This document shows, one piece after another, positions 17,466-41,848 of a DNA stretch of 64,000 nucleotides. Source of the DNA: Candidatus Saccharimonadota bacterium (GTDB lineage Bacteria > Patescibacteriota > Saccharimonadia > Saccharimonadales > Saccharimonadaceae); NCBI GenBank assembly GCA_017432025.1, contig JAFRJX010000003.1, forward strand, positions 186,001 through 250,000, given 5' to 3'. The position numbers and the translations under genes are program-made. Within the stretch, counting starts at the first letter, position 1, and the number at the start of each line of letters is the position of its first letter. The notes beneath the pieces are model-generated. The model was given only the letters and a program-made list of their open reading frames with translations, did no database searches and was not told the origin of the DNA.

Positions 17466-17592
17466 AAAAAGTTCCTTTGGTTATTTATAATATAAAAGCT
17501 AGCTAATTGTTAAATAGCGTCACCAAATAAATTGAAGAATTGTCCTCGGTGGCATGATTAAGTGAAAAACACCGCCACTGTCTTTGGTAACT
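17466..17592 (-). promoter_or_regulatory. Candidate L10 leader (autoregulation)
   Basis: Between a TATAAT box (17599-17604, minus strand) and the rplJ start lies an untranslated leader of about 127 nt. On the minus strand TTGAAG can pair with CTTCAA and enclose a stem with GTGGC/GCCAC topped by GTG-TTTTT-CAC. A long structured leader directly before rplJ matches the place and size of L10 leaders in other bacteria, where L10 or L10-L12 binds to repress translation. The match is by position and helix pattern only. Confidence 0.5.
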
Positions 17593-17598
17593 TCAAAC

Positions 17599-17604
17599 AT
17601 TATA
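17599..17604 (-). promoter_or_regulatory. -10 box of the rplJ-rplL operon
   Basis: TATAAT on the minus strand, about 133 nt before the rplJ start. It is one of the few promoters here that gives a long 5' leader. Confidence 0.5.
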
Positions 17605-17621
17605 CCACAAGGGGAGTTTAT

Positions 17622-29780: not shown

Positions 29781-32700
29781 TTATTCGCTTCTCAACGCTT
29801 CGACTGGATCTTTCTTTGAAGCCGAGCGAGCTGGAATTAAGCCGCCAATCAGAGTCAGTACCACACTCAGCACAATTAGCCCAATTGCTGTATTAATGGC
29901 GAGCGTTGCCGATAAAGGTATATCACCCGTGAAATGATGAAGAACCGCATTGATGATTGGGATTAGTAGATATGAAATCCCGATGCCAAAGATTCCAGAC
30001 AAGAATCCAATAATAAACGTTTCAGCATTAAAGATGTTCGAGATATTGTGTTTGCTTGCGCCAATGGCACGTAGAATGCCAATTTCCTTCGTGCGCTCGT
30101 AAACTGAAATATAAGTAATCACGCCAATCATAATAGAACTGACTACGAGCGAAATCGAAACGAAGGCGATTAAGACGTAAGACACCGCATCTACAATTGT
30201 CTTTACACTAGACATCAGTACGCCTGTGATATCGGTGTACTTGATTTCTTTTTCATCCTTCCCCATTGACTTAAAGGTTTCGTTGTAGTGATCTAGGAAA
30301 CTCACAAAATGATTCTTGCCATCAAAACTATTGAAGTAGAATTGCATATAGGTCGGCTCGTCGAGCTTTTGATAACCCATCGCCGAGAGATTTGCTTCGA
30401 GCGTCGATTCGCTCTTCGTGAACATCGCCGTCACCACCCTTGCGAGCTCATCCTCAGTAAAATTCAACTTAAAGGCGCCGACAATTGCGGATTCATCAAC
30501 CGAAAAGGCATTTGCAAAGCTACTCGTGAGATACGATGACAAACCTCCTACTTTCGTCAGGATGTCGGATTTCATTCTAACCTCGAGGATCGCAATCGCA
30601 AACTCATCGAGTGTCTTATCGATTAATTCATCCTGCCCACCAGCAATCGTGAGTTTTAGCATACCAGCGTAAGCCAATACAAATCGATCTTTCGGGATTA
30701 GATATTTGATTTCAAATTCCGAGAAATCCTTCGTGGCGACAAATTCATCAATATAATCTGGCATCTTGGCTGGGTCGAAGTCCGGCTCCATCGCCTTCGC
30801 TGCGACAAAGCTCATCATTTCTGGCGTTAATTCGTCTAATTCGTCAGCGAGTTCTTTTCTAATTGGGCGAATATCCGCATCGATTGATTCCGAAATCTGA
30901 TTTATATAGTCCTTAGTTTTAGCGGCCACCATGTTTTGGTCGATTTTCACATCAAATGCCTGCGCCAGTTTATTCGAATCAACCGATACTAAATCGGAGA
31001 ACTGGAAGTTGAAATCATTTTTCTTTTTGCCAAATTCAGTATTCGAAAAGACGTCAATCTCCGGGGTCGACAACTGTTTCTTAACTATCTCCGTCTCGCT
31101 GGATTTTTCAATAATCTTCTCAACTAGACTTGGTAGATATAATACACCGCTTGTCATCAAAGATACATTATCTTTCGGCGTCAAAACACCCACAATTTTG
31201 AGCGTTTCGGCTGAATCGTAAAGTTTCTTCATGTATTCTTCATTCTCGCTCATATCCTCGTAGACTTCGTATTTCGAGTTGTATTTATACAAATTATACG
31301 GATAAATGAGTTTGTATTCCTTATTCATTAAATCATCGTACGAGAGTTTGAGTGGTTCCCCCTCAATCTGTACGCTCTCACCACTCATTACTTTGGTAAT
31401 CAGCGTCGACAATTCGCTCGTATCATGATAACCCAACGAATAGGCGAGTAAATCTGAAATCTCGTGTGGATCAGACAATACAATTGCCATCTCGTTGTAT
31501 TTCTCCGGATAACGCCCACTTACGACTTTAGTGGTGTCGCGAATTACTTCAATATTAAACTGCTCAAACACGGAAGTTAGATTAGAATATGAACTCATAA
31601 TGGTGCTACCACCATAGAATGACTCAAACAAACTATTCGGATTAAGTTTTGCCACCTTTTTGGTCGCGTCAATCGTATAAATCGGTGGATCGACATTGTA
31701 AGTATAATTAATTACTTTAATATCATCCTTCACTTCATCATTGTGGCGGTCGAGATAATCCTGGAAGGCCTTCAAATCATTCGATGAAACGCTACCAAGC
31801 ATTGACGTGAGGACGCGATTTTCGTTCACAAAATTACCTTCGATATTGCTGTTGGTCGTACCAGTAAGGCTAAGTAACATTCCCGTAATATCTGCCGACT
31901 CTTTTGAAAGAATCAATGGGTAGGAAGTTAGCGTATTCTCCTCAATATAATCAATATAGTTTTGGAACCCAGTTGAGACGGCTGAAATCAAGGCGATACC
32001 AATAATGCCAATCGAGCCAGCCACCGATACTAAAATGGTGCGGGCCTTCTTAGTCATTAAGTTTTTGAGCGACAAAGATAATGCCGTAAAGAAAGACATT
32101 TTCGTCTTTCTACTCTTGCTTCCAGCATTAAAAGCGTCTAAATCCGTCTTAATACTGCCATCATATTTCTCGGAGTCTGCAGTAATTTTACCGTCTTTCA
32201 AACGAATAATTCTCGTCGCATATTGGTCAGCAAGCTCCGGGTTGTGCGTCACCATGATCACAAGCTTATCTTTAGCGATTTCTTTTAGGAGCTCCATAAT
32301 TTGGATACTAGTTTCAGAATCAAGAGCGCCGGTTGGTTCGTCTGCAAGTAAAATATCCGGATCGTTCACAAGCGCACGTGCAATCGCCACGCGTTGCATC
32401 TGCCCACCTGAAAGTTGGCTTGGTAGTTTATCAATATGTTCAGATAGCCCCACATCTTTTAGGGCCTTCTTGGCGCGAATAATTGAATCTCTTTTTGAAA
32501 TACCAGATAGCGTTAGTGCTAGACGCACGTTTTGTAAAACCGTCTGGTGTGGAATCAAATTATAACTCTGAAAAACAAAACCAATTCGGTGGTTACGATA
32601 GCTATCCCAATCTTTATCTTTGAACTTTTTAGTACTTTTTTCATTGATAATCAAATCACCAGAAGTATAGTGGTCAAGCCCACCGATAATATTAAGAAGC

Positions 32701-32837
32701 GTAGTTTTACCGGAACCAGACGGGCCAAGAATTGCCGCAAATTCCGAGACCGGAAAATTGACATCAAAATTATTAAGGACGGTACGCTTAATACCACCAG
32801 TCTCGTAGACTTTCGTCACACTCCTTAACTCTAGCAT
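29781..32837 (-). CDS. ABC transporter, fused ATPase and FtsX-type permease
   Basis: A 1018-aa MacB-like fusion. The ATPase is at residues 1-235: Walker [10 protein letters not shown] (38-46), signature LSGGQMQR near 141, Walker B LLADEPT near 162. One membrane helix (about 262-285) is followed by a very large outer domain of about 600 residues and three more helices with the FtsX motif [12 protein letters not shown]. Such transporters pull molecules out of the envelope rather than across it; peptide or lipoprotein export and antibiotic resistance are typical. A two-component system lies directly upstream on the same strand, in the BceRS-BceAB manner. The ATG follows TGC-TAAAAT by 8 nt. Confidence 0.88.
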
Positions 32838-32876
32838 ACACTATTATTTTAGCATAAAAAGAATGGGAGCAGAATG

Positions 32877-33791
32877 CTAGAAATTCAGCGTAAATGTGGT
32901 ATTACTATTCGATTTCACGCTTAGATTCCAATGGTTGCGATCGGCCAGAGATTTGGCAATCGAAAGTCCGAGCCCGACCCCTTCGGAGTTCTTATCCGCC
33001 TGGTAAAAACGATCAAATACATGGGGGAGCGCATCTTTACTAATCGTAGCGCCATCGTTTGTGACCTTGAGGACATGGTCTTCAAGTGTCAAAGTAATCT
33101 TATTGTCGGAGTATTTAATTGCATTATCCATCAGAATGCCGAGTAGTTGCGAAAAATCATTGGCATTCACTTTAACTTTATCAGAGACATTAAGTTCTTT
33201 CTTAAACTTAATATCCTTCATTCTCGGCTCAAAGCTTTTCAGCTGTTTTTCAACCAGTTCCTTCACATTGACTTCCTCGCTAGTCACAGTATTCACTAGA
33301 TCGGTCCGTGCAAGTGTCAGGAGTTCAGAATTCAGCGCTGTTAACTTCTCCGTTTCCATTGCCACGTTATCAATCCAGTGATTATTCTTAATATCGGCAG
33401 CTTCAAGGTTAGCCGAAATCGCGGCAAGCGGTGTCTTAATCTCATGTGAAGCATTGGCAATAAAGACCTTCTGCGATTCATAGGCCTCCTTCACCGGTTT
33501 AATCGCTTCTTCGGCTAGATAATATGAAATAAAAATTACAGCGAGTTCAATTCCGACACCAGAAACTATTAATGACAATAATAGGTTCTTTGCTGCCGCC
33601 TCTCGCTCACTTCGAATCCAAGCATCAAATAATTTGCTAGCTTCCGAATCGACACTCACTTCCATCATCGGTGGCCGCATGTCGGCTGAACGCGTCGAAG
33701 TAATATAAATCGCCGTAAAAGTAATCAAAATGACGACGGAAGAAATACTGAAGTTAATCAGAATTAATCTATTTCGAAGCTTTTTGAACAT
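32877..33791 (-). CDS. Sensor histidine kinase
   Basis: A 304-aa kinase with two membrane helices (about residues 9-30 and 64-89) around a small outer loop of about 33 residues. The H box NASHEIKTP has the phospho-accepting histidine near residue 112, the N box is NAIKYSD, and the ATP lid has GVGLGLS. The gene overlaps the response-regulator gene by 23 nt. With such a short sensor loop it may sense through the neighbouring ABC transporter, as Bce-type kinases do; that is inference. Confidence 0.9.
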   Translation of the reverse strand: MFKKLRNRLILINFSISSVVILITFTAIYITSTRSADMRPPMMEVSVDSEASKLFDAWIRSEREAAAKNLLLSLIVSGVGIELAVIFISYYLAEEAIKPVKEAYESQKVFIANASHEIKTPLAAISANLEAADIKNNHWIDNVAMETEKLTALNSELLTLARTDLVNTVTSEEVNVKELVEKQLKSFEPRMKDIKFKKELNVSDKVKVNANDFSQLLGILMDNAIKYSDNKITLTLEDHVLKVTNDGATISKDALPHVFDRFYQADKNSEGVGLGLSIAKSLADRNHWNLSVKSNSNTTFTLNF

Positions 33792-34440
33792 CTAATTTAT
33801 ACCCAAGGTTACGGATCGTCTTAATCGACACTTTCGATTTTAGACCTTTCATCTTTTTACGTAAATAACTCATATAAACTTCGACATAGTTTTCTTCGAA
33901 CTCGGATTCCGCGCCCCAAACATGGGCGAGAATCTGCGATTTTGTAACAGCGGCATCCGGACTCTTCACGAGCATTAAGAAAATCTCCGCTTCTTTGTCG
34001 GTGAGAGACACACTATTTAGCGTGCGGTTTGCCGGATCAAAAGTCAAATCCCCGTATATAATTTTCTTCTGCTCGACTAGTGGCGGACGGCGCGTCAAAG
34101 CATTAATACGTGCAATTAGTTCTGCCGTCTTAAATGGTTTAGCGAGATAATCGTCGGCACCATCTTCGAGTCCACGAATCTTATCCTCGACTTCGTTTAA
34201 TGCAGACAACATAATAATCGGCGTTTTAATTCCCCGTGCCCGGACAATCTTTAAAATATCGAGCCCAGACATCTTTGGTAGCATAATATCTAGCACAATA
34301 CAGTCGTAGTTAGGCTTCAGGGCGAGGCTAAGACCTTCTTCGCCATCGGCGGCCCAATCGACCATGATTTTTTCTTTCTTTAATAAATGAATTACGGCTT
34401 CTGCCAAGAACTTTTCGTCTTCAACATATAGTATTCTCAT
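33769..34440 (-). CDS. OmpR-family response regulator
   Basis: A 223-aa regulator with a receiver domain (acidic pocket at E7-D8, phospho-acceptor Asp51, KPF near 101) and a winged-helix DNA-binding domain ending in KTIRNLGYKLD. I chose MRILYVED at 34440 because a TGT-TATGAT box ends 6 nt upstream; the longer frame to 34458 would begin before this promoter. It is the first gene of the regulator-kinase pair. A long inverted repeat directly upstream is a good candidate operator. Confidence 0.92.
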   Translation of the reverse strand: MRILYVEDEKFLAEAVIHLLKKEKIMVDWAADGEEGLSLALKPNYDCIVLDIMLPKMSGLDILKIVRARGIKTPIIMLSALNEVEDKIRGLEDGADDYLAKPFKTAELIARINALTRRPPLVEQKKIIYGDLTFDPANRTLNSVSLTDKEAEIFLMLVKSPDAAVTKSQILAHVWGAESEFEENYVEVYMSYLRKKMKGLKSKVSIKTIRNLGYKLDVQKASK

Positions 34441-34446
34441 AGTTTC

Positions 34447-34452
34447 ATCATA
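34447..34452 (-). promoter_or_regulatory. Extended -10 box of the response regulator gene
   Basis: TGT-TATGAT on the minus strand ends 6 nt before the ATG at 34440, which predicts a leaderless mRNA. Confidence 0.5.
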
Positions 34453-34471
34453 ACACATGTGCTAATTATGA

Positions 34472-34510
34472 AAACTTAAAATTTCTAAAATTTAAAAAAA
34501 TTTTAAGTTT
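34472..34510. promoter_or_regulatory. 13-bp inverted repeat between divergent operons
   Basis: AAACTTAAAATTT (34472-34484) and its exact inverted copy AAATTTTAAGTTT (34498-34510) are separated by 13 nt. Inside, the block TAAAATTT also occurs as a direct repeat with 9-bp spacing. OmpR-type regulators often bind AT-rich direct repeats of this kind. The site lies at the -35 region of the regulator gene and upstream of the VTC operon, so it could control both. Confidence 0.5.
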
Positions 34511-34532
34511 CGTGGTTTAATATAGAGAGAGT

Positions 34533-35255
34533 ATGGATGAAAAAACATTTGATCGAGTTGAAAAGAAATATTTAATTACATCCGCACAAAAAAAGGAACT
34601 CCTGAAGGTCATTAAGAAGAATATGAAGAAGGATAAGTTCCACAAGTCAGGTGTATTTAATATTTATTTTGACAACGACAACTACGATTTCATTATCCAA
34701 TCCATCGATCATCCAGTCTTTAAAGAAAAGCTACGCGTACGTTCGTATTATGGCTACAATAAAGCCTTCTTTGAAATTAAGACCAAACTACTAGGTAAAG
34801 ATTATAACGTTGGATATAAACGCCGTGTGCTTGTGACGCACAAAGACTACAATGATTTTATTAAGAAGAAAGCTGATTTCATCGAAATCGCCGGCCGCAA
34901 AGTTGAAAATCCGACCGACATACAAATTGCTCGCGAAATCGATTATTTCATTAGGCAATATAATTTGAAGCCAAAGATTCTGGTTTATTATAACCGCGAG
35001 AGTTACAAAGGCGAAAACAATCTACGAATCACCTTTGATTCGAGCCTAAAATACCGCAATCGCAACTTAAAATTTACGAAGAATAAGAAGGATAAATCAG
35101 CTTTAAAACGGGGCGAACTGATTATGGAAATCAAAGCCCAAGGGAGTTATCCAATGTGGCTCGTCCACGCACTCTCCAAAGAACATGCCTACCCACAGCG
35201 TTTTTCTAAAATCGGAAAAGTATACGGAATATTAAGAAAGGAGCAAAATGTTTAA
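34533..35255 (+). CDS. VTC-domain protein (polyphosphate-polymerase-like)
   Basis: A 240-aa VTC domain. In yeast this tunnel-shaped domain makes polyphosphate from ATP. The basic and acidic positions of the tunnel are present: an early E-K-K-Y (10-13), LRVRSYYG (68-74), EIKTK (81-85), KRR (96-98), YNRESY, RITFD and a late MEIKAQGSYP. The bacterial relatives often lack a proven activity. The next gene overlaps by 8 nt and encodes DUF4956, a partner that is found with VTC proteins in many bacteria. Confidence 0.88.
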   Translation: MDEKTFDRVEKKYLITSAQKKELLKVIKKNMKKDKFHKSGVFNIYFDNDNYDFIIQSIDHPVFKEKLRVRSYYGYNKAFFEIKTKLLGKDYNVGYKRRVLVTHKDYNDFIKKKADFIEIAGRKVENPTDIQIAREIDYFIRQYNLKPKILVYYNRESYKGENNLRITFDSSLKYRNRNLKFTKNKKDKSALKRGELIMEIKAQGSYPMWLVHALSKEHAYPQRFSKIGKVYGILRKEQNV

Positions 35256-35919
35256 CAGTATATTTGACGCCAGCACGACTGGATTAGAAATCACGACAGC
35301 TTTAATTTCAGCAGGAGTCGCCCTCGGCCTTGGGCTTGTCCTAGCCCTCACCCATATGAAGACTTCGCAAACCACGAAAGGCTTCTTAATCACGCTAGCC
35401 GTCTTGCCACTGCTCGTAATGGCTGTGATGATTATGATTAACGGCAATCTCGGTACTTCGATTGCGATTCTCGGTGCCTTTTCGTTAATTCGTTTCCGTT
35501 CCCTGCAGGGTCGCGCCAAAGACCTACTTGCGATTTTCTTCGCGATGATGATTGGCCTTGCTTGTGGCATGGGACATGTATTATTTGGCACTGTAATTAC
35601 GGTTATCGCCGTTATCGCCATCGTTCTATTTAGCTACACAAAATTCTTGGAGCCAGATCATCACGACAAGATTCTAAAAGTTGTCATTCCAGAAGATATG
35701 GACTACGATGAAGTCTTTGACGAAATCTTCAAGAAATACACCTCAAGGCACAATCTTGTCCGTATGAAGACCATGAATATGGGGAGCCTCTACAAATTAA
35801 CCTATGACGTCAGAATCAAACACGGTGTGAAAGAAAAAGATTTTCTCGATGAAATCCGCATAAAAAACATGAATCTTAAAGTGTTACTTTCCGAACCATG
35901 CGCTGACGAGGAGATTTAA
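35248..35919 (+). CDS. DUF4956 membrane protein
   Basis: A 223-aa protein with four membrane helices in the first 130 residues and a soluble C-terminal alpha/beta domain (about 145-223). The helix-2/3 region holds the conserved GAFSLIRFRSLQGRAKDL stretch of the family. It starts inside the VTC gene with AAGGAG before the ATG and ends overlapping the next gene by 1 nt (TAATG). Function unknown; the constant pairing with VTC proteins suggests it carries or senses the product of that enzyme. Confidence 0.86.
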   Translation: MFNSIFDASTTGLEITTALISAGVALGLGLVLALTHMKTSQTTKGFLITLAVLPLLVMAVMIMINGNLGTSIAILGAFSLIRFRSLQGRAKDLLAIFFAMMIGLACGMGHVLFGTVITVIAVIAIVLFSYTKFLEPDHHDKILKVVIPEDMDYDEVFDEIFKKYTSRHNLVRMKTMNMGSLYKLTYDVRIKHGVKEKDFLDEIRIKNMNLKVLLSEPCADEEI

Positions 35920-37478
35920 TGAAATCCAGAATCGATTATAAATGGATTGCCATCGGCGCTATGGCGGTCGCGGCCTTAATCTCGGCCATCGTTATTAATA
36001 TTGGACATGACAATGGCAATAAAATCGAGCGTTCTATTAATACCGACAATGGTGATTTAAAGATTAATTGGGACAAATATCAAACTACCGATGTTGTTCT
36101 TAGCGAAAGCTATACGATTAATAAATCCGGTGTTTATCATTTATCTGGCGAACTTAAAAACGGTCTCGTCAGTATTAATGTAAAAGACGGCGTTGTAAAA
36201 CTAATTCTCGACAACGTCACAATCAAAAACTCGTATGGCCCGGCCATTGCCTGCTATGAAGCGGATGATTTAGTAATTGAATTAATTGGCAAGAATACTC
36301 TAAAAGATGGCGAAACCTACGCAGGAAATCTCGACGAAGATGTTAAAGGCGTAGTCTATTCTAAAGCCGATCTCGCCTTTATCGGCGACGGCTCACTCGC
36401 TATCACTGCCAACTATCAAGACGGCATTGTTTCAAAAGACGATTTAAAGTTTAATGGTGGCGAGTATACCATTATAGCTAAAGATGATGGTATTCGTGGT
36501 AAAGACTCAATTTATGTTGTGGACGGTGTTTTCACAATCGAAGCCGGTGGTGACGGCATGAAATCAACTAACGAAATCACCGCCGGCAAAGGTTTTGTAT
36601 TAATCGAACAAGGCGCCTTTAACATTACAGCCAGCGCTAAGGGCATCAAAGCAGTTAATAGTATTCTAATTCACGATGGGAACTTCATCATCTCGTCCAA
36701 AGACGACGGTGTCCATTCGAATAATTACATTGGAATTATGGGTGCCAACATCGAAATTTCGTCCGGTGACGACGGTATCCATGCCGACAAAGAACTAATC
36801 GTTGATGCCGGCAAAATTAGTGTTTTAAAGAGCTATGAAGGCCTAGAAGCGAAGGCAATTACCGTCAATGGTGGCGAGATTTCGGTCGTCGCGTCAGATG
36901 ATGGCATGAATGCCGGCGGCGGTAACGATGCCTCGGCTAACAATCGTCCGGGCGCAAATCCGTTTGATGCCGATACGAGCTGTGCGCTCACTATTAATGG
37001 CGGTAAAATCTATGTTAATGCGGCCGGCGATGGTTTAGATAGTAATGGCTATCTTACTTTCAACGGTGGCGAAGTTGTAGTTGACGGTCCAACCAACAAT
37101 GGCAATGGCGCTCTGGATTCTGGTTCCGGAATTTCCTTTAATGGCGGCTCCGTTATTGCAATCGGCGCCAGCGGTATGGCCGAATCGCTCGGCACTACAT
37201 CCTCAATCAATAATGTCAGTATCTATCTCTCATCATCCCAAAAAGCCGGCACCAAGATCGAAATCAAAAATTCAGCTGGTGAAACCGTCTTAAGCCATAC
37301 TTCGCTCAAGACCTTTAATCATATTTCCGCCGGTACCGAAAAATTTGAAGAAGGTAAAACTTATACTTTGTATCTAAACGGCGCCAAAACCGAATCATTT
37401 ACGATTAATGGTATTGTGACGACAGTTGGTTCTAATTCTGGGAACCAGATGCCGAATCAGCCGATGCAGCGGCGGTAA
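35919..37478 (+). CDS. Exported beta-helix protein, Cthe_2159 type
   Basis: A 519-aa protein of the carbohydrate-binding Cthe_2159 family (PF14262). One N-terminal signal anchor (residues 8-27) is followed by a parallel beta-helix whose coils carry repeated DDGI-like turns (KDDGIRGKD, GGDGMKST, KDDGVHSNN, GDDGIHADK, SDDGMNAGG, AGDGLDSNG), which look like calcium-binding loops. The founding member binds cellulose-like and pectin-like polymers. It is the third gene of the VTC-DUF4956 operon. The 3' end overlaps the convergent beta-lactamase-fold gene by 47 nt. Confidence 0.87.
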   Translation: MKSRIDYKWIAIGAMAVAALISAIVINIGHDNGNKIERSINTDNGDLKINWDKYQTTDVVLSESYTINKSGVYHLSGELKNGLVSINVKDGVVKLILDNVTIKNSYGPAIACYEADDLVIELIGKNTLKDGETYAGNLDEDVKGVVYSKADLAFIGDGSLAITANYQDGIVSKDDLKFNGGEYTIIAKDDGIRGKDSIYVVDGVFTIEAGGDGMKSTNEITAGKGFVLIEQGAFNITASAKGIKAVNSILIHDGNFIISSKDDGVHSNNYIGIMGANIEISSGDDGIHADKELIVDAGKISVLKSYEGLEAKAITVNGGEISVVASDDGMNAGGGNDASANNRPGANPFDADTSCALTINGGKIYVNAAGDGLDSNGYLTFNGGEVVVDGPTNNGNGALDSGSGISFNGGSVIAIGASGMAESLGTTSSINNVSIYLSSSQKAGTKIEIKNSAGETVLSHTSLKTFNHISAGTEKFEEGKTYTLYLNGAKTESFTINGIVTTVGSNSGNQMPNQPMQRR

Positions 37479-38406
37479 TACCGGCGTGGTAGGCGGCCTC
37501 AAATTCTGAGCCGAAACGGGCAATTTGTTGGTATGGTACGTAGCTAGACATCACTACTACAACAAAGTGGCGATTCTCGGCCGGAAATTCCACAATGGCA
37601 GCATCGTCGTAAATCGTCCAAGCTCCTGCATCTGGGCTGTAATTCCACCCTACTTTGTTATAAACTTTAGCAGCTGCTGAAAAGCCAGAAGGTAACCCTT
37701 GACGCCAATTATAGGTCGTCACTGGTTGATTTAAGAACGAATCCTTCATTACGGCAATCAATGATTCATCGGTAATCTCGGTATGGTTATAGAACATCAT
37801 CATCATGTCTTTTATCTCGCGAGTGGTCGCCGATAAACTCGAAACTGTCACGCTCATCATGCCAAATTCATAGTTTACGACATCATTCAAATGACTCTGC
37901 CCAATCTTAGACCAAAGTGGCTCGGCACAACCAGAATCGGATGAACGAATTGCAGCGTCTAGGCATTCGAGAATCGTATTTCCCCGCCCATTCGCAACCG
38001 CATTGCGATCCCATTCGCCCTTTTGGACCAAACGATAGCCGTGATAGACCACATAGAGTTTATAAAGCGAAGCAGTGGCAAATTTTGTATCAACATTGTA
38101 TTCGCCGACAATTTTATTCAAATCAATATCGTAAACCATCACGCCTTTTTTGCCACCCACCGAATTCACCCAAGCATCGATAGTCGGCTGGAAATTTATT
38201 TCCGGAATGACCGGCTCCGGTTCTGGTTCTGGCTCTGGCTCCGGTTCTGGTTCCTGGTTTTGTGACTGCTCCGGTTCTTTCTTTGGTAGATAATTTACAC
38301 AAACATGGATCACCAAGGCTGTAAACGATGCCACAATGGCAAATAATAGGAAAATCTTGATGAATCCTTTTATGGATGCACGCTTGCTAGTCTGTTTAGA
38401 AACCAT
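37432..38406 (-). CDS. Class A beta-lactamase-fold serine hydrolase
   Basis: A 324-aa envelope protein with an N-terminal membrane helix (about 14-34), an (EP)n spacer near residues 47-65, and a class A beta-lactamase fold. The S-x-x-K motif (ASLYK, about 113-116), an SDS in place of SDN near 154, and an NKVGW in place of KTG near 250 are visible. The last change argues against real beta-lactamase activity; a peptidoglycan-linked or regulatory role is more likely. The start has AAGGAG and lies within the 3' end of the capA-like gene. Confidence 0.75.
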   Translation of the reverse strand: MVSKQTSKRASIKGFIKIFLLFAIVASFTALVIHVCVNYLPKKEPEQSQNQEPEPEPEPEPEPEPVIPEINFQPTIDAWVNSVGGKKGVMVYDIDLNKIVGEYNVDTKFATASLYKLYVVYHGYRLVQKGEWDRNAVANGRGNTILECLDAAIRSSDSGCAEPLWSKIGQSHLNDVVNYEFGMMSVTVSSLSATTREIKDMMMMFYNHTEITDESLIAVMKDSFLNQPVTTYNWRQGLPSGFSAAAKVYNKVGWNYSPDAGAWTIYDDAAIVEFPAENRHFVVVVMSSYVPYQQIARFGSEFEAAYHAGITAAASADSASGSQN

Positions 38407-39854
38407 ACTGATGTCTCCTTATCTAGTAGTCTGGTTTGCATTTCGTTACCGTAAACGGTTGGTACCATTTTCGTTTGGAGCAGTTTCCCATTGTAGAAAT
38501 AGTGCGCGAGGACGAGGCTTCTCGTCGTGCCAGGCCACCAGACTTGATCAAAGAAGAGATTACCGAGACCATAATAAATCACACCATTGCCATAAACCTC
38601 GAAGGTTTGTGGTTGATGCGCAGAAGTACCAACTACTACATCGGCGCCAAGATCGATAATATGTCTAAATAGTCCGACCTGATCACCGGCTGATGAATTT
38701 GCGCGGTCGCAAGTTGGATCTTCATAAGTCGAAGCGTAGGCATTACATTCATAGTATTGAATATCGACAATCACTAAATCACCGGCGTTTTTAGCAGCCT
38801 GGATTTGCTGTGAAATCACTTCCTCATAGTATTGATTGGCTCCTGGTCTTGTGCCATAAGTCGCACCACCGGTCGATTGGTTAAAGGCGAGGAAGGTAAT
38901 ATTGGTTCCCTTTTCCGAGATGCGAAGCGGCACATAAGCCTCTTCGGCATTTCTACCACCACCCACGATCTTCATACCGTTGTTTAAGTAGGTCTCAACT
39001 GTATCAATGGCCGCCTGTGCACCACAGTCGACATTATGATTACCAGTTAATTCCACAATATCTAGGCCAATCGCTAGGAGTGTATTAATAAACCTTTTAT
39101 CAGAGCAAATATTCCTTGAGTTTGCATAATCCGTAAATGAAGATTCGTTTGAAGTATGGGTTAAATCAAAACTAGATAAATAATCCTTAATGTTCGCAGC
39201 GAAATAAGTCGCGTCACCGCCAACGTTCTTCAGTTTCGTGTCCATGCCACGAGAAAGTGCCGTCACGCCAGTTTGCGCAAATGTGAGAACGGTATCCTTC
39301 GTCGGGAATGACTTTGTATAAGCTTCGGCGACGAGTGGTTTAATCTCCTCGTCATACCTCTCGGATTTAAAAGTGATAATACGATAAACTCCGCCTTCGC
39401 TAAAGGAATCGAGATAATATTTATTATTAATCTTAAGTAAGTTTTTCTTACTGGTAAGCTCGTCCAAATCAATCAACGTTACATTTGGATTAGCAATCAG
39501 CGCATCGGCGGTCTCTGCATCCACATTGTCTACATTAAACTCATAAAAATCGACTACTGGCACTCTAACGCTTACCAAGAATTCACCCTCTTCAAGTTCT
39601 GGGATAGTTAACTCGTTCCGAGCCGAAATCGTGACGTCTTTATCAAGATCGAGCTCTTCTGTGAAATACTTCGCCAACTCTTCCTTCTCGACTTCGGTCA
39701 AGGATTCATCGTAGTAAACGACGCCCGGGATTCTAAAGATACCAGTCTTCGTGATGAATTGGACGCCAAAGAAAACCCCGGCCCCCACAATCAGAAAACA
39801 AATCATCCCGATAAAAAACCGTTTTAAAAATGAGTGTTTTTTCTTCCCAGCCAT
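38370..39854 (-). CDS. CapA-like metallophosphoesterase-fold envelope protein
   Basis: A 494-aa protein with one N-terminal membrane helix (about 9-30), an extra domain (30-165), and a CapA/PgsA-type domain (PF09587) related to poly-gamma-glutamate synthesis proteins. Visible motifs are ELTGNHNVDCG, KIVGGGRNAEEA, the VVGTSAHQPQTFEVY stretch and YGLGNLFFDQ. The outer part is probably on the cell surface. No capB/capC is in the window, so synthesis of poly-gamma-glutamate is not supported. It overlaps the next gene by 37 nt. Confidence 0.82.
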   Translation of the reverse strand: MAGKKKHSFLKRFFIGMICFLIVGAGVFFGVQFITKTGIFRIPGVVYYDESLTEVEKEELAKYFTEELDLDKDVTISARNELTIPELEEGEFLVSVRVPVVDFYEFNVDNVDAETADALIANPNVTLIDLDELTSKKNLLKINNKYYLDSFSEGGVYRIITFKSERYDEEIKPLVAEAYTKSFPTKDTVLTFAQTGVTALSRGMDTKLKNVGGDATYFAANIKDYLSSFDLTHTSNESSFTDYANSRNICSDKRFINTLLAIGLDIVELTGNHNVDCGAQAAIDTVETYLNNGMKIVGGGRNAEEAYVPLRISEKGTNITFLAFNQSTGGATYGTRPGANQYYEEVISQQIQAAKNAGDLVIVDIQYYECNAYASTYEDPTCDRANSSAGDQVGLFRHIIDLGADVVVGTSAHQPQTFEVYGNGVIYYGLGNLFFDQVWWPGTTRSLVLAHYFYNGKLLQTKMVPTVYGNEMQTRLLDKETSVWFLNRLASVHP

Positions 39855-39860
39855 ATTTTT

Positions 39861-39880
39861 ATTATAACATATGCTATAAT
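39861..39880. promoter_or_regulatory. Palindromic divergent promoter pair
   Basis: A 20-bp near-palindrome holds two outward extended -10 boxes: TGT-TATAAT on minus (39861-39866, 6 nt before the CapA-like gene) and TGC-TATAAT on plus (39875-39880, 6 nt before the GH97 gene). Only 32 bp separate the two start codons. The -35 region of each promoter falls on the start of the opposite gene, so the two can hardly fire at the same time. Confidence 0.7.
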
Positions 39881-39886
39881 TATTGT

Positions 39887-41848
39887 ATGTTTAAGTGGGC
39901 AAAATGGCTTAACGGCAAAGATACCGAAAAAGAAATCGTATCGCCAAATGGTCGCAATAAATGCACGGTCGCACTTAAGAATAAACAGATTTTCTATAAA
40001 GTAGATCGCGACAATAAACCAATCGTCGGACTCTCCCGGCTTGGCTTTGATATTTGTGGCGAAAAAATGCTTGGCAATAATTTACGTGTCATCCGTATCG
40101 TCACGAAAAACATCGATGAGACTATCGAAATGCTTTGGGGCGAAGACCGCTTAATCAAAAATAAGTGTTCTGAAGTTACTTTCTATTGTGCCGAGGACCA
40201 AGAACCAAAACGCATTTTCACACTAAGGTTTCGCGTCTACGACAATGCTGTAGCTTTCCGCTATGAGATCCCGCCACAACCGAAATTTCAACAAATCACG
40301 ATTGCCGACGAGCTTACTGAGTTTAATATTGATCTTAATACTACTGTCTGGAAAATTCCGGCCTACCAACCTGACCGCTATGAGTACAATTACGAAAAAG
40401 CCGCCGTCTATGATTTGAATCACTCTGTTCATACGCCACTTACGATGAGAACGCCGAACGGTTGTTACCTTTCGCTTCATGAAGCCGCGCTTTACAACTA
40501 TGGCTCCGCTACGATTAAACTCAGCGCCGAGAATAAACTTAAAACCGACATTACACCATTATCGGATGGCACCAAAGCTCACGTTTCCCTACCGTTTGAG
40601 ACGCCATGGCGTTTAATTATGATTGCCGACTCGGCAATTGAACTCACGACCAACCGTGTGATGTATTGTTTAAACGATCCGCCACGGGGTGATTTCTCCT
40701 GGGTCAGGACTTTGAAATTTATTGGGATTTGGTGGGCCATGTATGTCGGCGAATGGACTTGGGCTCCAGGTGAGCGCCATGGTGCTACTACCCAACACGC
40801 CAAAGAATACATCGATGCCGCCGTGAGGCTTGGTATCCCAGGTGTCCTAATTGAAGGGTGGAACGATGGTTGGGAAGGCGATTGGCTTGAAAATGGTATT
40901 AATAATAGTTTCACGAAATCTACTCCCGATTTTAACCTTCCGGAAGTTGCCCGCTATGCCCGTGCTAAGTCGGTCGAGATTGTTGGCCACCACGAAACGG
41001 TCGGCTTCGTTGATAATTACGAAAAACAACTCGAGGAAGCCTATAATTTCTATGCCGCAAATGGCGTGCATTTCATCAAGACGGGCTACGCTGGTAGCCA
41101 AATCCTAATTCATGGTCGACGTGAATATCATCACTCCCAGGCCGGGGTTAATCATTATCAAAAAACAGTAGAGCTGGCGGCCAAAAAACATATTTGTCTT
41201 GATATTCACGAACCAATTAAAGGCACTGGCATTGAAAGAACCTGGCCAAATCTCTTATCGCGCGAAGGAGCCCGTGGTCAGGAATACGAAGGTGGCGCAC
41301 TTTCGCCATCACATGCTTGTTATTTGCCTTACACGAGATTACTTTCTGGTGGCATGGACTACACCAATGGCATCTTCGATTTAGCTAACAGCGTTAAACG
41401 TATGTCTACTACACTTACGCGCCAAATTGCCTACTTTATCACGATTTATTCTGGTATGGCGATGGCAGCCGATCGTCCGTATATTTATGAAGAAAGATTT
41501 AAAGATATGCTGAAATTCTTGCGCGACGTGCCGACTAACTTTGAACGTACCGTTCCGCTTGCTGGCGAGGTCGGCGAATACTATGTGGTCGCTAGAAAGG
41601 CCCGTAACGGCGATTGGTTTATTGGAGGCGTGACTGACGAAACTGGTCGCAAGGTTAATATAGGTCTCAATTTTCTTGACGAAGGCGTCTATCAAGCCGA
41701 AATCTACGCCGATTCGAATGATGCCCACTACCGCGATAATCAATTTGGTCATACTATCACTACGAAAAACGTCAGTAAAAAAGAAGCCATCGAATTGTAT
41801 ATGGCACCAGGCGGTGGCTTTGCTATACGGCTTTCGCGGTCAAAATAA
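39887..41848 (+). CDS. GH97 alpha-glucosidase, inverting SusB type
   Basis: A 653-aa GH97 glycoside hydrolase. The order of motifs is that of SusB: GIWWAMYVGEWTWA, HGATTQHAKEYIDAA, GVLIEGWNDGW, HHET (Glu370), FIKTGYAGSQ, IHEPIKGTG (Glu442) and REGARGQEYE (Glu466). The three glutamates fit the inverting alpha-glucosidases; the retaining members have an aspartate nucleophile in the segment that here reads IKTGYAG. No signal peptide is seen, so it may act on internal glucans. The start at 39887 is set by the -10 box 6 nt upstream. Confidence 0.9.
   Translation: MFKWAKWLNGKDTEKEIVSPNGRNKCTVALKNKQIFYKVDRDNKPIVGLSRLGFDICGEKMLGNNLRVIRIVTKNIDETIEMLWGEDRLIKNKCSEVTFYCAEDQEPKRIFTLRFRVYDNAVAFRYEIPPQPKFQQITIADELTEFNIDLNTTVWKIPAYQPDRYEYNYEKAAVYDLNHSVHTPLTMRTPNGCYLSLHEAALYNYGSATIKLSAENKLKTDITPLSDGTKAHVSLPFETPWRLIMIADSAIELTTNRVMYCLNDPPRGDFSWVRTLKFIGIWWAMYVGEWTWAPGERHGATTQHAKEYIDAAVRLGIPGVLIEGWNDGWEGDWLENGINNSFTKSTPDFNLPEVARYARAKSVEIVGHHETVGFVDNYEKQLEEAYNFYAANGVHFIKTGYAGSQILIHGRREYHHSQAGVNHYQKTVELAAKKHICLDIHEPIKGTGIERTWPNLLSREGARGQEYEGGALSPSHACYLPYTRLLSGGMDYTNGIFDLANSVKRMSTTLTRQIAYFITIYSGMAMAADRPYIYEERFKDMLKFLRDVPTNFERTVPLAGEVGEYYVVARKARNGDWFIGGVTDETGRKVNIGLNFLDEGVYQAEIYADSNDAHYRDNQFGHTITTKNVSKKEAIELYMAPGGGFAIRLSRSK

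Follow-up and report, generated by a model that had tools for sequence, protein, structure and literature searches.

VTC enzymes have been characterised in eukaryotes, and the Cthe_2159 family of beta-helix proteins is known for the binding of calcium and polysaccharide; members of both meet, together with a DUF4956 membrane protein, in a three-gene operon of Candidatus Saccharimonadota bacterium (assembly GCA_017432025.1, contig JAFRJX010000003.1), a tiny gut bacterium of parasitic-type lineage with a genome of 858,689 bases in 8 contigs, from which a stretch of 64,000 nucleotides (positions 186,001 to 250,000, forward strand; hereafter the window) was analysed. In the yeast VTC complex (PMC9911596), the chain is translocated as it is synthesised, a charged path connects the enzyme with the channel in the membrane, and the triple change R264A/R266A/E426N impairs catalysis. 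Among bacteria, a set composed of CotH, a polyphosphate polymerase and DUF4956 has been reported beside Gram-positive Pel clusters, that is, beside pelDEADAFG in streptococci, clostridia and bifidobacteria (PMC7112168), and, for the streptococcal regulator CiaR, PMC3091779 gives the site TTTAAG-N5-TTTAAG and the recognition helix VVEVYVSKVRKKL.

The observation of a VTC/DUF4956/beta-helix operon is confirmed. An initial annotation, made from the letters alone, had described three genes overlapping by 8 and 1 nucleotides, which the coordinates of the open reading frames (ORFs) bear out, and had named three families, each of which exceeds its Pfam cut-off, while NCBIfam gave no name to any of the three proteins; the cytoplasmic, membrane and exported positions that it assigned to the products agree with the predicted hydrophobic segments.

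34533-35255, plus strand: VTC-domain protein of 240 amino acids, Vtc4-like triphosphate-tunnel fold, predicted soluble (PF09359, 125.4 bits against a cut-off of 23)
35248-35919, plus strand: DUF4956 membrane protein of 223 amino acids, five helices and a C-terminal ACT-like domain (PF16316, 52.6 bits against 30.6)
35919-37478, plus strand: Cthe_2159 beta-helix of 519 amino acids, N-terminal membrane anchor and low-complexity tail (PF14262, 271.9 bits against 25.8)

A search for DUF4956 in named contigs gave 76 loci, 73 of them counted as Saccharibacteria by title and similarity (including Candidatus Nanosyncoccus alces) and three clostridial (L099, L101 and L102); on this ground the window is assigned to a Nanosyncoccus-like Saccharibacterium. 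VTC directly adjoins DUF4956 in all 73 saccharibacterial loci, and the beta-helix comes next after the pair in 69 of them (the exceptions being L038, L054, L059 and L044, the last on a contig that ends there), for which reason the order of the operon is not attributable to chance.

On the clostridial side, represented by 148 genomes drawn from the class of the L099 genome, CotH and Cthe_2159 are mutually exclusive linked partners of the VTC-DUF4956 pair. DUF4956 is present in 72 of these genomes, VTC in 75 and both in 71, and VTC lies within 2 kb of 84 of the 90 DUF4956 places; within 4 kb of these 84 linked pairs, CotH stands by 38 and Cthe_2159 by 24, and both stand by none, where about 11 pairs with both partners would be expected (the P of 1.2e-8 assumes independent places, which these are not). 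The count is based on 83 CotH and 61 Cthe_2159 places; secondary, fragment and weak rows were not entered, and inspection by eye shows none of them less than 4 kb from a linked pair. At the genome level, CotH is found in 53/75 genomes with VTC against 5/73 of the others, and Cthe_2159 in 50/75 against 6/73. CotH is therefore no obligate partner, as 14 of the 23 genomes with a Cthe_2159-linked pair have none. The initial annotation, which contained neither CotH as alternative partner nor the unlinked CotH gene of the window's own genome, had stated that VTC and DUF4956 often go together with no proven role: the linkage bears out the first part, and the second needs nuance in view of the deletion phenotypes given for Streptococcus intermedius in PMC12345266, which are set out below.

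In the window's own class, surveyed in 147 genomes, VTC and DUF4956 occur in the same 26 genomes, at most 1 kb apart in all 26, so that the co-occurrence of families, which had been proposed as a check, is far above chance here as in the 84/90 places of the clostridial side. Cthe_2159 is found in 25 class genomes, 23 of them with VTC (G060, G089 and G092 have VTC without it, G138 and G144 the reverse), and CotH in 27, namely 24/26 genomes with VTC (all except G103 and G121) against 3/121 others (G006, G110 and G127). Because the genomes share ancestry, the p-values of this survey overstate the significance, and kinship was handled by a within-genus test alone: among the 27 genomes of the genus, Cthe_2159 accompanies VTC in 21/21 genomes against 1/6 without it, and CotH in 19/21 against 2/6 (p 0.011). 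Of the 29 DUF4956 places in class genomes, just 3 have CotH at a distance of 5 kb or less. In the genome of the window, a CotH-family kinase gene (L107:6754-8037, contig C4) is located beside a GH25 muramidase gene and unlinked to the operon; its product has an N-terminal hydrophobic segment, and its presence tracks the operon across the class.

These distributions could be understood if the VTC-DUF4956 pair exported a phosphate-rich donor for CotH kinases outside the cell, with CotH acting in trans in Nanosyncoccus; the co-occurrence of CotH with VTC in the class and within the genus, its place beside 38 of the clostridial pairs and the hydrophobic segment of the own-genome kinase are all in favor of such a supply. 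However, the many CotH-less genomes with a Cthe_2159-linked pair, the near absence from CotH genes of the regulatory box considered next, and the fact that the genomes are not independent make this explanation very unlikely.

The genes divergent from the operon, which the initial annotation had recognized as a two-component system with an envelope ABC transporter, are confirmed by Pfam, and their link with the operon is strengthened by boxes of CiaR type.

29781-32837, minus strand: ABC transporter with FtsX-type permease (Pfam)
32877-33791, minus strand: sensor histidine kinase (Pfam)
33769-34458, minus strand: response regulator, OmpR type (Pfam)
34475-34480, minus strand: CiaR-type box, TTTAAG half-site directed towards the gene of the response regulator, the other half-site degenerate
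34502-34507, plus strand: CiaR-type box, TTTAAG half-site before the VTC gene, second half-site degenerate

The DNA-binding stretch of the window regulator, YVEVYMSYLRKKM, is close to the CiaR helix; the name CiaR-like is given from this similarity and from the box, with no tree behind it. The fetched flanks of the saccharibacterial loci hold 29 regulator genes of the window type. TTTAAG is present in the 110 bases before VTC in 23/29 loci with a nearby regulator (1.9 in shuffled sequence) and in 12/42 loci without one (shuffled 2.6), as well as before the regulator gene itself in 23/29 (shuffled 2.9), and before other genes it remains at or under the shuffled level. The full promoter pattern, in which NTTAAG-N5-NTTAAG is situated about ten bases before a -10 element, occurs before 16/29 regulators and 7/71 VTC genes, whereas no other gene tested has it. 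Among clostridial-side genes, the strict box is located upstream of 9/68 distinct VTC genes and 8/53 Cthe_2159 genes, compared with 1/58 CotH, 1/20 regulators, 0/71 DUF4956 and 1/326 other ORFs, these last being mechanical ORFs of which some may not be genes. This count was made on distinct upstream regions with duplicates removed, from -200 to +60 because predicted starts may be wrong, and took in 60 CotH, 20 further Cthe_2159 and 40 VTC places fetched from among those found. CotH as a general target of the box is thereby rejected, and a scan of eight CotH-region loci, among them that of the own genome, gave no box. Four genomes (G147, G196, G224 and G252) have the box before the VTC operon and also before Cthe_2159 genes that are separated from it by over 10 kb or by a contig boundary, and thus a shared regulator is suggested independently of linkage. 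The distribution of the boxes suggests that the enzyme and the surface protein are switched on jointly by one stress-type regulator.

With regard to the enzyme, the VTC protein has no hydrophobic helix, contains 54 K+R against 29 D+E, and shows no SPX or membrane domain (Pfam finds VTC alone). Its best solved relative by sequence search is Vtc4, and residues 7-240 of its model (predicted local distance difference test, pLDDT, 91.8) superpose on residues 195-472 of Vtc4 (3g3r_A) with a Z of 20.7 and a root-mean-square deviation of 2.8 over 231 aligned residues, compared with a Z of about 13 for other tunnel enzymes (11-13). Sixteen residues are invariant in 129 sequences (R8, E10, K12, K66, R68, R70, E81, K83, K85, K96, R155, R165, D169, E199, K201 and K226); among them are all seven basic residues, K12, R68, R70, K83, K96, R155 and R165, that align with K200, R264, R266, K281, K294, R361 and R373 of Vtc4. 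The structural match extends as far as Vtc4 residue 472, and the invariant E199, K201 and K226 presumably correspond to Vtc4 E426, K428 and K458.

DUF4956 shows five hydrophobic stretches, and its model (pLDDT 79.9) consists of five membrane helices followed by a C-terminal ACT/ferredoxin-like domain, in which residues 139-221 match domains of that type with a Z of about 9. In 43 diverse members, G76, R84 and G103 are invariant and N67, R82 and F83 nearly so, the most conserved stretch being that from N67 to GAFSLIRFR.

The beta-helix protein carries a single N-terminal hydrophobic segment (residues 7-25), and a lipobox-like motif is found in 0/68 of its relatives. By sequence it matches a solved relative, 4peu/4phb, over residues 48-262, which is the Cthe_2159 protein of Clostridium thermocellum. 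The low-complexity tail ends in Arg-Arg, an ending found in 33/69 Nanosyncoccus beta-helix proteins against 0/554 other ORFs of those loci, and in 6/39 beta-helix proteins elsewhere; it might conceivably serve in sorting.

As for the origin of the operon, in a tree built from 43 DUF4956 rows, no fewer than three changes are required for the Saccharibacteria, and the nine rows of Nanosyncoccus type group together with support (99/96) inside the clostridial-side rows and adjoining G290 (96/94), whose pair is Cthe_2159-linked, a reading limited by midpoint rooting and by long branches (L002 and L151). The operon was apparently transferred into Nanosyncoccus from Clostridia-like bacteria.

If these lines are brought together, they may be read, tentatively and with less than even confidence, as a regulated envelope module formed by a CiaRH-like switch, a polymerase of polyphosphate-type VTC kind, a DUF4956 membrane partner and a surface beta-helix. 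The CiaRH-like two-component system would switch the operon on, as boxes and neighbourhood suggest; the VTC protein, judging by fold and residues, would build polyphosphate or a similar phosphate chain from ATP at the inner face of the membrane, where DUF4956 would dock it; in the weakest step, DUF4956 might pass the chain outwards as in yeast VTC, or gate it through the ACT-like domain; and the anchored beta-helix, as surface partner, could bind the product or make use of it, a linked place taken by CotH in related bacteria, Nanosyncoccus having received the whole, if the tree is followed, from its Clostridia-like donors. The interpretation in the initial annotation, according to which an enzyme makes or modifies a polymer that DUF4956 carries and the beta-helix holds at the surface, is in this way partly supported, gaining from the co-occurrence, from the Vtc4-like fold with its invariant residues and from the two-component link. 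Also in favor of the module, PPK1 is above cut-off in 0/147 class genomes, with one weak sub-threshold match and PPK2 not searched.

Several results weigh against such a module. In the window, each side of the divergent region has one good half-site alone, the intact box being found in relatives. For 22 of the 84 linked clostridial pairs, a stretch of 4 kb around them contains no CotH and no Cthe_2159, and the 20 of these that were inspected are mostly two-gene units amid unrelated genes; some partnerless pairs have a two-component system nearby. In S. intermedius (PMC12345266), the knockout of the polyphosphate polymerase SIR_1593 kept both aggregation and Pel. Finally, no channel relative of DUF4956 was found: the sequence search of solved structures gave chance-level matches alone, Foldseek gave nothing at E <= 0.001, and a second comparison concerned mostly the ACT-like part, with the membrane part barely covered. 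The model of DUF4956 resembles instead a sensor or regulator of ACT-like type, and weak MgtC (PF02308) matches are seen in 18/43 members at E <= 1 (best 3.6e-5), so that a regulatory role is no less plausible than that of a channel.

It is here that a hydrolase or sensor must be considered, in which the VTC protein would use its tunnel fold to hydrolyse triphosphate or to sense nucleotides and DUF4956, like MgtC, would regulate the balance of phosphate or ATP, as befits the ACT-like C-terminus, the MgtC matches in the family and the many same-fold tunnel enzymes, at a Z of 11-13, that are hydrolases or cyclases. It is nevertheless unlikely: Vtc4 is the closest fold by a wide margin and its basic residues are invariant, the box common to enzyme and surface protein would be left unexplained, and the DUF4956 of the window itself has no MgtC match at E <= 1.

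The chief rival of the envelope module is that VTC, DUF4956 and the exported partner would modulate how an exopolysaccharide is made or retained, with no polyphosphate leaving the cell, and it owes this place to the knockouts in S. intermedius, where loss of the polymerase kept Pel and loss of SIR_1592 or CotH altered it. According to PMC12345266, deletion of SIR_1592, a protein that the authors describe in MgtC and ACT terms, gave more Pel and less aggregation, and deletion of SIR_1594 (CotH) gave less Pel; from the gene set in PMC7112168, we infer that SIR_1592 is DUF4956. The position of the set beside Pel clusters, the name carbohydrate-binding given by Pfam to the Cthe_2159 family and a PGA_cap gene near the operon point in the same direction. 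Against this, PelG is above cut-off in 0/147 class genomes (14 weak partial matches, own genome included; other Pel genes were not searched), and Pel itself is therefore unlikely in the window's class; moreover, no polysaccharide synthase is found among the nine annotated proteins of 29781-41848. Polysaccharide tuning is thus considered rather unlikely, and for the own genome the idea of a Pel accessory was rejected, PelG not being above cut-off. The partial PelG-like match of that genome (G000:C1:91476-91874, 18.6 bits, below cut-off) falls in a 587-amino-acid frame, probably another flippase-type protein.

The envelope module also admits a more specific form, in which a bacterial polyphosphate synthase-exporter, acquired whole by reduced, parasitic-type bacteria without PPK1, would bring a phosphate polymer to the surface to feed or anchor CotH or the beta-helix, with a CiaR-like switch for the enzyme and the beta-helix, and this we consider decidedly unlikely. 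Were polyphosphate exported, there would be a PPK-independent bacterial route to a surface phosphate polymer, and the supply of an exported kinase might find an explanation. VTC and DUF4956 together are found in almost half of the clostridial-side genomes (71/148), and through the exclusive choice of partner, together with the box on unlinked Cthe_2159 genes, an orphan domain pair becomes a module whose regulator and surface targets can be put to the test. The VTC-DUF4956 pair and its CotH link are already partly in print; in the literature searched, no paper on the VTC-DUF4956-Cthe_2159 operon or its CiaR-type control was found, nor any on the VTC domain together with DUF4956, and the same holds for the Cthe_2159 alternative and its mutual exclusion with CotH, for a regulon of CiaR type and for transfer of the genes to Saccharibacteria.

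Downstream, the beta-helix gene overlaps a convergent beta-lactamase-like gene tail to tail by 47 nucleotides (37432-37478), and the region 37432-41848 contains beta-lactamase-like, PGA_cap (capsule-type) and GH97 genes.

38370-39854: PGA_cap gene (Pfam)

These genes and the divergent ABC-kinase-regulator genes recur beside the operon in relatives, in varying order. At L042:8139-10038 and L094:8218-10114, genes for a 7TM-type membrane protein and a CAP-domain protein are placed between the beta-helix and beta-lactamase-like genes, where the window has neither, and at L112:1599-2669, in another saccharibacterial family, a lamin-tail-domain protein gene precedes VTC-DUF4956. Elsewhere in the window there is a ribosomal protein L10 leader RNA (17483-17605, minus strand).

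In comparison with known systems, the operon shares with the yeast VTC complex (3g3q/3g3r; complex 7ytj/8i6v) the full-length tunnel fold, the catalytic basic residues and a cytoplasmic catalytic domain working with a membrane part, whereas the window protein lacks SPX and a fused membrane domain, its Vtc4-like activity is predicted, and its membrane partner is DUF4956 instead of the Vtc1-type helix bundle of yeast. With the accessory genes of Pel clusters (PMC7112168 and PMC12345266) it has in common a VTC-DUF4956 pair next to an exported protein, although in the window Cthe_2159 occupies the linked place, with CotH elsewhere in the genome and no PelG above cut-off in the class. The CiaRH regulon of streptococci (PMC3091779) is similar in the box about ten bases before -10, which is intact in relatives of the window, and in the recognition helix, but the targets proposed here, from comparison alone, are VTC operons and Cthe_2159 genes in other lineages. 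Lastly, Cthe_2159 itself (4peu, 4phb) belongs to the same family as the beta-helix of the window, which differs from it in being membrane-anchored, in its Arg-Arg tail and in forming an operon with VTC.

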